Of a stretch of 38,311 nt of DNA, positions 7,998 through 34,005 are shown piece by piece. The notes below the pieces were generated by a model. The model was not told the origin of the DNA and ran no database searches. It saw only the letters and a program-made list of their open reading frames with translations. The first letter of the stretch is position 1; each line of letters starts with the position of its first letter. The stretch is from an uncultured Bacteroidales bacterium (lineage in GTDB: Bacteria; Bacteroidota; Bacteroidia; Bacteroidales; Bacteroidaceae). The stretch covers positions 1-38,311 of the forward strand of contig CAMGHE010000005.1 of NCBI GenBank assembly GCA_946055775.1. Direction: 5' to 3'. The position numbers were made by a program, and so were the translations under genes.

Positions 7998-8417
7998 TCA
8001 GATGTCCATGGTCAGCAGGCGCGTGCCGTCCTCCTGCTCGTCGATGTGGACGATGACCGTGTCGTCGGGCAGCACCTCTTCGGCCAGTTCGGGCCATTCG
8101 ATGAGGCACAGGGCGCCCGAGTAGAAATAGTCCTCGAAGCCCATGTCATAGACCTCGTCGATGCGCTTGATGCGGTAGAAGTCGAAGTGGTAGATCACCT
8201 GCGCTGTGGTATCGGAGCGGTATTCGTTGACCAGGGCGAAGGTGGGCGAGTTGACGGTCTCGCTGACGCCCAGATGGCGGCACAGCGCGCCGATGAACGT
8301 GGTTTTGCCGGCGCCCATCTTGCCGTAGAAGGCGAACACGCGGCGGTCCCCCATGGCGTGGGCGAAGGCTTCGGCCGCCTGCTCCAGATGGTTGCTGTCG
8401 GGAAGGGTGATTTGCAT
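7998..8417 (-). CDS. tsaE: tRNA threonylcarbamoyladenosine biosynthesis ATPase TsaE
   Basis: A 139-aa P-loop ATPase of normal TsaE length. With TsaB and TsaD it forms the complex that puts the t6A modification on adenosine 37 of ANN-decoding tRNAs in the cytoplasm. The Walker A motif is YGKMGAGKTTF (G32-T40). Family-typical segments follow: SPTFALVNEY, then the HFDFYRI strand, then LIEWPEL. The start at 8417 is supported by a -7 box (TAATTTTG) about 20 nt upstream at 8437-8444, which rules out the longer overlapping frames. It is followed after 45 nt by the GH20 gene, so the two may share a transcript. Confidence 0.96.
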   Translation of the reverse strand: MQITLPDSNHLEQAAEAFAHAMGDRRVFAFYGKMGAGKTTFIGALCRHLGVSETVNSPTFALVNEYRSDTTAQVIYHFDFYRIKRIDEVYDMGFEDYFYSGALCLIEWPELAEEVLPDDTVIVHIDEQEDGTRLLTMDI

Positions 8418-8444: not shown

Positions 8445-8647
8445 CACAAAAAGCCCCGTTCCGCACCGACCGTACCCCATTCTTTTCTCTTGCTGTCCGG
8501 CGGCGCCTCCTTACAGCGCGTTCCTGACGCACCCCATAATATACGTCACGCGGAGCGGGCGCTTCACGTTTTGCACAAGAGTTTTCTATCGCGGCTCGCT
8601 TTGCCGGCGAAACGTTTAGGGCTTTTTAACGGTCGGAGAGGGGGCTC

Positions 8648-8718
8648 GGGCGACTGACGGCACGCCCCGGGCGACTCGAAACACGACTTGGGCGACTGAA
8701 AACACAACTTGGGCGACT
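8648..8718. repeat. 21-bp tandem repeat, four units beginning GGGCGACT
   Basis: GGGCGACT starts at 8648, 8669, 8690 and 8711, an exact 21-bp period. Units 2 and 3 are nearly identical (GGGCGACTCGAAACACGACTT and GGGCGACTGAAAACACAACTT, shown here split only by period); unit 1 has diverged after GGGCGACTGA. The fourth copy runs into the stem described at 8699-8746. Twenty-one base pairs is two helical turns, so the sites would lie on one face of the DNA. The array is intergenic, between mscS and tsaE. Its function is unknown. Confidence 0.85.
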
Positions 8719-8746
8719 GTTTTTACGGTCGCCCAAGTTGTGTTTT
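8699..8746. terminator. 19-bp perfect inverted repeat, possible bidirectional terminator
   Basis: The arm AAAACACAACTTGGGCGAC (8699-8717) is perfectly complementary to 8728-8746, leaving a 10-nt loop. Because the arms begin with AAAA and end with TTTT, an RNA from either strand would fold into a strong stem closing on a U-run. The arm is built from the adjacent 21-bp repeat unit, so an inverted duplication of one unit probably created it. It may end transcription between mscS and tsaE. Confidence 0.65.
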
Positions 8747-8767
8747 GGCCTTTTGGATACGAAAAAA

Positions 8768-8887
8768 GGGCCCCCGCGGGAGCCCTTTGCACTTTGCTAA
8801 GCAAAGATACGACAAATTCGGGCGAAATGCAAATCGCACTTTTTCGCTGCTCCCCCGAAAAATTGTTTGCCGTGAGGCGAGAGTTTT
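8768..8887 (-). repeat. Dispersed promoter-plus-hairpin repeat, copy A
   Basis: About 120 bp that recur at 22343-22459 in the same orientation. Read on the minus strand the shared order is: AAACTCTCGCC near the start, a GAGCRRCGAAAAAG stretch, a promoter (TTTG at 8830-8833, 20-nt spacer, TATCTTTG at 8802-8809), the small palindrome CTTTGCTTAGCAAAG that overlaps the -7 box, and a GC-rich hairpin (8768-8785). In this copy the hairpin is followed by six U (8762-8767), making a good intrinsic terminator about 35 nt after the expected transcription start. It lies just downstream of mscS. I do not recognise it as a named RNA family. Confidence 0.75.
8802..8833 (-). promoter_or_regulatory. Consensus promoter inside repeat copy A
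   Basis: Minus-strand TTTG (8830-8833), exactly 20 nt, then TATCTTTG (8802-8809), a full match to the Bacteroidota housekeeping promoter. The -7 box overlaps the inverted repeat CTTTGC-TTA-GCAAAG, a possible operator. The first downstream structure is a terminator-like hairpin, not a gene; tsaE is about 390 nt further on and has its own -7 box. Confidence 0.7.
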
Positions 8888-8915
8888 CTGTCGGGAGGGC
8901 TGCGGCGAGCGGCGC

Positions 8916-9782
8916 CTACGCCTCTTTCTCGCGGACGATGTGTACCGTCTGGTTGGGGTAGGGGAAGTTGATGCCCTTGGCGTTGAAGGCATCGTAGATG
9001 AGGCGGTAGCCGTTGTTGAACACGGGCCAGTAGTCGCCCGTCTTGGCCCATACGCGGACGGTGAGGTTGACGCTGCTGTCGGCCAGGGCGCCGAGGGCCA
9101 CGGTGGGCTCGGGGTCGGCCAGGATGAGGGGCTCCTGACGCAGGGCTTCGAGGATGGCGTTGCGTGCCTTATCCACGTCCTCGCCGTAGTCGATGCCGAT
9201 GGTCCACTCTATGCGGCGGGTGTCCATGCGCGAGTAGTTGACCACCACGGCGGTGCTCATCGAACCATTCGGCACATAGACCACCTTGTTGTCGGCCTGC
9301 ACCAGGACGGTGTGGAATATCTGTATCTCCCTGACGCTGCCCTGTACGCCCTGCGCCTCAATCCAGTCGCCCACCTTATAGGGTTTGAAGAGCAGGATGA
9401 CCAGTCCGCCGGCGAAGTTTTGCAGGTTGCCGGAGAGTGCCATACCGATGGCCACACCGGCTGAGGCCAGCAGGGCGGCGAACGACGTGGTGTTGATGCC
9501 CAGAGCGCCGATGACGGAGATGATGAGCAGGATGGTCAGCATGATCTTGACCATGCTGCGCAGGAAGGTCTGCACGCTCGGGTCGATGCGCTCGCGGTTG
9601 AGGATGCGGGCTACGATACGGTTGATGATGCCGATGATGGCGCGCCCCACGAGAAAGACGATGGTGGCGACGAGGATGTGCTTGCCCACGCTGATGCCGA
9701 ACTCCATCAGGCGCTCCAGCAGGAGGTCTATCTGGGTGCGGGTGATGGTGGGGGCGGCGGTTTGGAGAAGGGAGAATAACAT
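8916..9782 (-). CDS. Small-conductance mechanosensitive channel MscS family protein
   Basis: A 288-aa MscS-type channel that opens under membrane tension and releases solutes during hypo-osmotic shock. An amphipathic N-terminus precedes membrane segments around HILVATIVFLVGRAIIGII and MLTILLIISVIGALGI. The Gly/Ala-rich pore helix LLASAGVAIGMALSGNLQNFAGG follows, then the cytoplasmic beta domain with the family signature PNGSMSTAVVVNYS. The length matches the E. coli MscS class. The start is set at ATG 9782 because the longer in-frame version would begin inside the terminator region of the upstream nlpC gene and has no family similarity. It is minus-strand, 150 nt after nlpC, with no clear promoter box in the gap. 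Confidence 0.95.
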   Translation of the reverse strand: MLFSLLQTAAPTITRTQIDLLLERLMEFGISVGKHILVATIVFLVGRAIIGIINRIVARILNRERIDPSVQTFLRSMVKIMLTILLIISVIGALGINTTSFAALLASAGVAIGMALSGNLQNFAGGLVILLFKPYKVGDWIEAQGVQGSVREIQIFHTVLVQADNKVVYVPNGSMSTAVVVNYSRMDTRRIEWTIGIDYGEDVDKARNAILEALRQEPLILADPEPTVALGALADSSVNLTVRVWAKTGDYWPVFNNGYRLIYDAFNAKGINFPYPNQTVHIVREKEA

Positions 9783-9826
9783 GGTGTGAAGGTGTTTGAA
9801 GGGTGTTGTCAGTGCCTTGGCGGCAC

Positions 9827-9864
9827 AAAAAAAGCGCACGTCAGCGGCGGGACTGGCGTGTGCT
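9827..9864 (-). terminator. Intrinsic terminator after the NlpC/P60 gene
   Basis: Read on the minus strand, AGCACACGCCA pairs with TGACGTGCGCT across a 10-nt loop (9833-9864) and is followed by seven T (9827-9833). It lies about 70 nt past the stop of the NlpC/P60 gene. Confidence 0.7.
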
Positions 9865-9932
9865 TTTCTATAGTAAATGAGGATGGTCGGTAGGGGGGCG
9901 CGGGGCAACGTCCAGCCGGAGCGGGCGTGTGC

Positions 9933-21572: not shown

Positions 21573-21618
21573 CGACGGCCGGCACACAGTAAGCATCATG
21601 CCTGTGTGCCGGCCGTCG
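21573..21618. terminator. GGCCGGCAC-type hairpin after sufS (copy 1 of 3)
   Basis: GACGGCCGGCACACAG (21574-21589) is perfectly complementary to 21602-21617, extended one more pair outward, with a 12-nt loop. It immediately follows the sufS stop. There is no U-run, so it may be a terminator or a processing or stability element. The GGCCGGCAC stem recurs at 22487-22531 and 23123-23171. Confidence 0.7.
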
Positions 21619-21659
21619 AGCGTTTCCTGTTCTCCCTTTTTCCATCCCCTTCTTTCTCC

Positions 21660-22238
21660 ATGCTCCTCTCCCGTTACAATACCGAAGTGGCCTGCGAAGC
21701 CGGCTGCGACGAGGCCGGCCGCGGTTGTCTGGCGGGCAGCGTCTATGCCGCCGCCGTCGTCCTGCCGCCCGACTATTCCCACCCGCTGCTCAACGACTCG
21801 AAGCAACTCTCTGACGCGCGGCGTCGTGCCCTGCGTACCGACATCGAGCGCGATGCTCTGGCTTGGGCTGTGGGCACCGCCACCGCTGCCGAGATTGACG
21901 ATATCAACATCCTGCGCGCCAGTATCCTGGCCATGCACCGCGCCCTCGACGGTCTGAGTCTGCGTCCCGACTTCATCATCGTCGATGGCAACCGCTTCAC
22001 GCCCTACGGCCAGACGCCGCACGCCACCATCGTCAAGGGCGATGCCCGCTACCTCTCCATCGCCGCCGCCAGCATCTTGGCCAAGACCTATCGCGACGAT
22101 GAGATGCACCGTTTGGCCGCCCTCTATCCCGGCTACGGTTGGGAGCGCAATGCCGGATATCCCACCGCCGCCCACCGCGAGGCCATCGCCCGCCTTGGCG
22201 TCACCCCCTACCATCGACGCACGTTCCGGCTGACGTAG
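21660..22238 (+). CDS. rnhB: Ribonuclease HII
   Basis: A 192-aa endonuclease that nicks RNA in RNA-DNA hybrids, including single ribonucleotides in DNA. The active-site signature [11 protein letters not shown] carries D17 and E18, D109 lies in IIVDGNRF, and the family C-terminal motif YHRRTF is present. The length is standard. I set the start at ATG 21660; a GTG 54 nt earlier falls inside the preceding hairpin. It follows sufS on the same strand but is separated by that hairpin, so it may have separate expression. Confidence 0.95.
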
Positions 22239-22342
22239 GGAAAGAAGAGAGTGCGATGAGACGCCCGCGCCACTTCAGCCCTACTTGGAACGTTCACCCA
22301 CCGATGTGTTGGCGCGGAAGGTGTGCATCGCCGAAGGGAAAT

Positions 22343-22459
22343 GGCCCCCAGCGGGAGCCCTATGCACATTGCTAAGCAAAGATATAACATTTTCAGGCGA
22401 AATGCAAATCGCCCTTTTTCGTCGCTCCTCTTGAAAGAGTTTGTCGGGGGCGAGAGTTT
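22343..22459 (-). repeat. Dispersed promoter-plus-hairpin repeat, copy B
   Basis: Second copy of the element at 8768-8887, in the same orientation. On the minus strand it contains TTTG (22405-22408), a 20-nt spacer, TATCTTTG (22377-22384), then CTTAGCAATGTGCATAGGGC and a GC-rich hairpin (22343-22360). The hairpin here lacks a following U-run. The blocks TTGCTAAGCAAAGATA and GCGAAATGCAAATCGC (plus strand) are identical in both copies apart from one flanking base. It lies between the convergent ends of rnhB and the small secreted-protein gene, so the promoter points at no co-oriented gene close by. Confidence 0.75.
22377..22408 (-). promoter_or_regulatory. Consensus promoter inside repeat copy B
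   Basis: Minus-strand TTTG-N20-TATCTTTG, identical in both boxes and spacing to copy A although the spacer itself has diverged in its second half. This pattern of change suggests selection on the promoter. Downstream on that strand is the antisense side of rnhB. Confidence 0.65.
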
Positions 22460-22486
22460 ACTATGGTAGGTGCGGAGCACTAATAT

Positions 22487-33973: not shown

Positions 33974-34005
33974 CAAAGTTACTACACCGGGGCAATGTGG
34001 CCAAA
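33974..34005 (-). promoter_or_regulatory. Consensus promoter of tamB, near-leaderless
   Basis: Minus-strand TTTG (34002-34005), 20-nt spacer, TAACTTTG (33974-33981), a full match to the Bacteroidota consensus. Only five bases separate the -7 box from the tamB ATG at 33968, so the expected transcription start is at or within a few bases of the ATG. Confidence 0.75.

Follow-up and report, generated by a model that had tools for sequence, protein, structure and literature searches.

A dispersed repeat with a predicted self-terminating promoter in an uncultured Bacteroidales genome and its relatives

The window analysed here, a stretch of 38,311 nt from an uncultured Bacteroidales bacterium, contains two intergenic sequences in which a promoter-like pattern appears to lead straight into a hairpin, and the question is what such an arrangement does between genes. 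The first-pass annotation had described these sequences, copy A and copy B, as a repeat of about 120 bp, and had considered a family of tiny RNAs, a mobile regulatory unit or insulation between genes. The shared repeat was confirmed: a query with copy A found copy B (E = 1.8e-27), with 86% identity across 90 nt (8764-8853 vs 22339-22428). A search of the bacterium's own genome (G000) with 136 nt of copy A returned 42 rows, comprising 40 distinct places at E <= 2e-6 and two short, weak matches, so the repeat is not a product of chance. The element is thus present 40 times or more in the draft genome of 2.2 Mb, where the promoter pattern, with up to three mismatches allowed, gives 45 matches and numerous contigs terminate in or beside element copies.

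Alignment of the 40 copies with their flanks demonstrated that the repeat extends to the left of the interval first described. The 27 full-length copies gave a clear consensus, and copy A is complete at roughly 330 bp (about 8562-8892); the repeat of about 120 bp is real, but it represents just the right arm of the element. In copy B (22339-22465) this arm has decayed, and the left half and the U-run are missing. On sequence grounds, the element is a real, structured dispersed repeat in many copies; it belongs to a broad class already known, and its core is unusual.

Read along the plus strand, the element is ordered as a left end module, a TTTA-N6-TTTAACG box, a variable stretch, GGGCGAC units, an inverted unit forming a palindrome, the hairpin, the dyad, the promoter and a right end module (Table 1). 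The hairpin, dyad and promoter belong to the minus strand, with transcription predicted to run leftward. The pattern of the distal, AT-rich box, TTTA-N6-TTTAACG, occurs 25 times in the genome vs 0 for a reversed control pattern, and the GGGCGAC units are spaced by 21 nt in 52 of 54 spacings, as counted over 44 full elements of G000 and a close relative, the SUG481 MAG (G061). The RNAalifold consensus of these full-length G000 copies pairs up the palindrome as well as the terminator hairpin on either strand, the minus strand having three extra pairs. The small palindrome said to cover the -7 box is intact in copy A, but only a remnant of it is left in copy B.

Table 1. Features of the two copies of the element in the window
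Feature	Position	Strand	Basis or remark
Left end module CTTCACGTTTTGCACAAGAGTTTTCTATC, copy A	8562-8590		similar module in the 27-copy G000 consensus; by eye in many copies
TTTA-N6-TTTAACG box, copy A	8615-8631	+	pattern match
21-nt tandem repeats GGGCGACTGAAAACACAACTT, copy A	8647-8719	+	Tandem Repeats Finder, period 21, rows 8647-8718 and 8669-8719
Palindrome, last direct and one inverted repeat, copy A	8700-8745		arms 8700-8719 and 8726-8745
Intrinsic-terminator-like hairpin with six U, copy A	8762-8788	-	10 pairs, 6 GC
Dyad CTTTGCTAAGCAAAG over the -7 box and start region, copy A	8792-8806		
Promoter TTTGCATTTCG-N8-TGTCGTATCTTTG, copy A	8802-8833	-	start predicted near 8797 from promoter layout
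Right end module GCGAGAGTTTTCTGTC, copy A	8877-8892		
Hairpin, decayed terminator without U-run, copy B	22343-22359	-	
Remnant dyad TTGCTAAGCAAAG, copy B	22369-22381		
Promoter, toward rnhB (21606-22238, +), copy B	22377-22408	-	
Right end module GCGAGAGTTTACTATG, copy B	22450-22465		

Comparison of the ends of the 44 full copies revealed no terminal inverted repeats, and a classical MITE was rejected on this ground. The mean local scores were 24.1 for direct and 18.5 for inverted comparison, and 16.3 for left ends against the right ends of other copies; since direct end repeats score at least 27 in just 8 of the 44, they are not claimed for the family. The element is apparently non-coding. 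Its 122-nt core has some stop-free frame in 39 of 40 copies, so that frame length is uninformative on coding. Codon scores of the cores are low: the best one exceeds zero in 11 of 40 and never goes above 8.6.

The core of the element is a TTTG-N20-TATCTTTG promoter, which both copies keep, as had been claimed. The pattern TTTG-N19..21-TANNTTTG occurs three times in the window vs 0.05 expected in shuffles, and two of these sites are copies A and B. The Bacteroides primary sigma factor consensus is given as TTTG around -33 and TAnnTTTG at -7 (PMC7366714); the promoter of the element fits a primary-sigma-type promoter and agrees with that consensus. Its length is 32 nt at 71 of 72 distinct places, under a pattern that permits 27-35 nt; the 72 places come from six genomes and from RUG192, where the place is not an element. 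Mean identity is 44% for the N8 spacer, vs 90-96% for the flanking boxes within G000 and G061 and 88% for the boxes in comparison with Segatella buccae, although the places were chosen with a regular expression in which the boxes are partly fixed. With this caveat on selection, the boxes are kept across distant copies and the spacer is not. A TTTGC-N2..5-GCA dyad is present in 70 of 90 places, a count given without a chance control.

This kind of promoter was also seen outside the element. One case is the third TTTG-N20-TANNTTTG site of the window (33974-34005, minus strand). Another is the RUG192 place, where, by eye, the same 32-nt promoter block stands ahead of an apparent protein gene and has no terminator hairpin.

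What follows the promoter in the element is a terminator-like hairpin. A hairpin followed by at least 4 T was found within 60 nt in 86 of 90 promoter places vs 20 of 1800 letter-shuffled leaders. By genome, the test was passed at 34/35 distinct places in G000, 25/26 in G061, 16/16 in S. buccae, 6/6 in G006 and 4/5 in G003, so that the test covered a minority of the promoter matches in G006 and roughly half in S. buccae. The four failures were copy B and three other loci. By eye, the stem is followed by a short T-run in two of these three (L042 and L127), and in the remaining one (L048) it lies beyond the limits of the test. Hairpin sequences vary among copies and genera with pairing retained, and each stem position shows several standard pair types in the 90-place set; this pairing is inflated, since hairpins were picked by pairing, and the shuffle count is the fairer control. 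Both sides of the stem change while pairing is maintained. In a MAFFT alignment of 46 places, the hairpin is of a different kind in different genera.

For copy A, the GC-rich hairpin ending in six U was borne out (8788-8765), and a 48-nt stretch containing it folds at -18.4 kcal/mol, an energy that is unremarkable by itself (z -1.64 vs shuffles). The hairpin of copy B folds no better than shuffles (z +0.32) and is followed by ATTTCCC instead of a U-run. As copy B fails the terminator test, copy A alone is predicted to end its transcript after some 35-40 nt. As a sequence feature the self-terminating promoter has good support; its use is presumed.

A promoter and a terminator in nearly all places tested would also suit a multi-copy small RNA family, in which RNAs of 35-40 nt would act in trans and the seed would be their loop or 5' end, and GCAA is indeed frequent in the 5' leader within each genome. 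This explanation is rather improbable: loops and stems differ among copies and genera, no longer unpaired stretch is kept, and GCAA may merely pair with TTTGC in the dyad. Moreover, the window holds no Rfam family at gathering score, and a search of eight loci at E up to 0.1 returned three microRNA matches far under their gathering scores; a known RNA family was rejected for these loci and the window. The broader suggestion of a tiny-RNA family or mobile regulatory unit survives two of the three refutation tests proposed for it, those of copies in relatives and of compensatory change in the hairpin, and may still hold.

Concerning the genes around the element, copy A has two minus-strand neighbours, an MscS-type channel gene upstream (8916-9908) and tsaE downstream (7998-8417), and copy B is flanked by rnhB and by a gene whose function is unclear. 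Genes were called on both sides of 25 of the 40 copies, and the context was convergent in 9, tandem in 11 and divergent in 5; these counts are approximate, because the ORF caller is crude and at copy B chose a 455-aa minus-strand ORF without a Pfam match over rnhB. This mixed context argues against a fixed gene target, and a host-gene leader was rejected for the same reason. The promoter of copy B does point at the 3' end of rnhB, as had been stated, and the gene is an RNase HII by Pfam (PF01351, E = 6.9e-40). An antisense role on rnhB is nevertheless only weakly suggested, as it would depend on the decayed copy B.

The neighbours of copy A allow a further explanation, namely an attenuated promoter for the downstream gene that is opened by antitermination. 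The next minus-strand Pfam gene there is tsaE (PF02367), which starts near 8417, about 380 nt from the predicted start. We consider this highly unlikely as an account of the element: the called gene on the downstream side is co-directional in 13 of 29 copies, and the palindrome and repeats would form a second barrier to transcription.

Insulation between genes is possible, but the gene context is mixed. Terminators on both strands would then block read-through between genes and the promoter would be secondary; the minus-strand terminator-like hairpin in 86 of 90 places agrees with this, and in several copies, by eye, the plus strand has a large palindrome that runs into a stretch of T. We nonetheless judge a cis insulator to be quite unlikely, since the promoter is among the best-kept parts and an insulator has no need of it, and since 5 of the 25 scored contexts are divergent.

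Further copies do occur in related genomes, although few genomes have them. BLAST gave matches in 4 of 61 genomes, one of the four being the own genome. The promoter pattern matches 15 of 393 genomes in the order, with 45 matches in the own genome and 1 or 2 in each of the rest, and 42 of 399 in the family, where five genomes have at least 13 matches: G000 (45), G061, there counted as G738 (37), S. buccae, there G586 (34), G006 (19) and G003 (13). Beside the 40 copies of G000, its close relative G061 gave 35 matches. S. buccae is an oral species of another genus, and by eye it has the same layout with unlike repeat sequences, as do G003 and G006. With one full S. buccae element as query, a search of 100 genomes from that genus found S. 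buccae itself and, in short pieces, two others. The layout is therefore common to two genera and the sequences look nearly species-private. Such a patchy distribution could also be explained by vertical inheritance with fast divergence. Phage or plasmid cargo was rejected: the 136 nt of copy A had no match in plasmid or phage records, and the promoter pattern was absent from the viral contigs searched.

Other repeats were noted in these searches. Among the promoter matches of G785 (5), G658 (4) and G595 (3) are other elements, in which a similar promoter is not directly followed by a terminator. In G658 and G595, of another genus, a multi-copy element (L219-L224) has, by eye, a similar promoter followed by tandem repeats of about 23 nt and an inverted copy, and in G785 a further multi-copy element (L214-L218) has a CTTGCATTTCGCC promoter and GCGTACCGCGCG palindromes. 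Other dispersed repeats also crowd these genomes, for example GTAGTAGTGCCATGTCCATTGACGTGGCAC in the flanks of L011, L014, L018 and L059.

The claim that the element had not been described holds for this sequence within the searches made: our literature searches, whose scope took in few subscription papers, found no description of it. Intergenic repeats of this broad kind, however, have already been described as PINSR in Prevotella intermedia (PMC4755523). By its description, PINSR is the nearest published repeat; it is reported with 177 and 184 copies in two strains, about three quarters of the sites being common to both, and as intergenic, judged non-coding, lineage-restricted and without terminal inverted repeats (PMC4755523). 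The element here resembles it in its high copy number and in lacking terminal inverted repeats, and differs in length (about 330 bp vs 188 bp); the words promoter and terminator are absent from the main text of that paper.

The BrickBuilt MITE of Porphyromonas gingivalis has 19 intergenic copies, with tandem 23-nt repeats between an unlike leader and tail, and showed promoter activity in a reporter (PMC4596501). Rho-independent terminators were predicted around 10 of the 19 copies, at BrickBuilt_5 outside the element (PMC4596501). The element here also has tandem repeats between unlike ends, but with a period of 21 nt and not of about 23 nt. BrickBuilt, as described in that report, differs in ending in IS5-like terminal inverted repeats, of which none were found here, and in that its predicted terminators do not directly follow an internal promoter. 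In Streptococcus pneumoniae, of another phylum, BOX, RUP and SPRITE are dispersed, structured, slow-moving and patchy repeats, judged parasitic, of which some copies are transcribed (PMC3049150); the abstract of that report makes no mention of a self-terminating promoter.

Comparison of flanks with G061 placed several copies at shared places. Ten pairs were aligned, giving six near-identical elements, three unlike elements at the same place and one unscorable pair (L004/L083). Since at least six copies are common to G000 and G061, movement would be slow. Fifteen further copies were picked for having no partner seen, and therefore no rate can be derived from them. An orthologous flank was found in G061 for 14 of the 15, and none of the 14 gave an alignment over the element in G061 at E <= 1e-6. 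Both flanks aligned in only four. At L016 and L026 the G061 site is shorter and has no element, and at L021 and L027 it is filled by other sequence. A clean target-site duplication was not readable at the sites compared with G061, because the intergenic sequence around them has turned over. As for the two copies of the window, the flank of copy A had no match in G061, and the G061 counterpart of copy B (L260) contains, by eye, an opposite-orientation left half of an element with the IS66-like end inside. Because the presence/absence variation comes without a readable target duplication, we can only infer movement, from sites that are occupied in one species and empty in a near relative.

In the six near-identical pairs, with gaps excluded, differences numbered 3/144 in the boxes, 3/48 in the N8 spacer, 2/161 in the hairpin plus U, 13/708 in the repeats and 31/509 in the outer flank. 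The element body is slower to change than the flank, and on the G000/G061 time scale the promoter is not better kept than the repeats.

The element also appears to receive insertions. In G000, 22 contig ends (L136-L157) bear GTAACTACTCAGCTAT, an IS66-like end, and by eye at least 15 of them lie in the element. The box was matched ahead of nine IS ends. The distance past TTTAAC is 16 nt for eight of them, of which seven are in the element and one, L140, is taken as outside; for the ninth, L145, it is 6 nt. Both IS ends were seen on both sides, so that insertion occurs in either orientation, and four pairs among the 22 contig ends share exact 8-mers, as expected of target duplication. A 64-aa C-terminal fragment of a transposase matched PF03050 just under the cut-off (23.0 vs 23.1 bits, E = 6e-5). 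These insertions may represent position-specific targeting of a repeat. The same IS was also seen at the apparent non-element places L139, L140, L145 and L153, and by eye some of these places show TTAAC-like boxes. Two other ends, L151 and L154, are found across element-like cores on their far side, and L151 has its 8-mer in common with L155. A scan of viral contigs for the IS66 end gave no match.

These ends at a fixed offset and their shared 8-mers, together with the 21-nt array and palindrome, would agree with a REP/BIME-like palindromic repeat that serves mainly as a DNA-protein binding site and an IS66-like landing pad. That explanation is distinctly doubtful, since it leaves the promoter and terminator unexplained and since 27 G000 copies are full-length without an IS.

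Our preferred reading, to which we give about an even chance, is that this repeat of about 330 bp is non-autonomous, moves slowly and has a promoter that is kept in check by the element's own terminator. Neither an autonomous copy nor a transposase of the element came to light in the sequences examined. The element would carry its own self-terminating transcription unit: RNA polymerase would start at the promoter, stop 35-40 nt later and release a tiny RNA. The maintenance or movement of the element may depend on this transcription event or on the opened promoter: transcription could, for instance, melt or supercoil the neighbouring palindrome, or the RNA itself could act. The terminator would be retained since it hides the promoter from neighbouring genes, so that an insertion would be nearly neutral. 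A bolder version, which we think unlikely, makes the element a counterpart of SINEs in spirit, in which a self-terminated transcription unit is the conserved heart and stands beside a 21-22-bp array and a palindrome, transcription or the tiny RNA drives the spread, the parts are re-invented per lineage, and the TTTAAC box is a fixed-distance landing pad for IS66-like elements.

What drives dispersed repeats in bacteria is often not apparent. In this case a promoter tied to a terminator is what two genera have retained while most else changes, and this would offer a testable handle on why such repeats persist. If these promoters are active, each such genome may contain dozens of hidden start sites that would confound RNA-seq and promoter maps.
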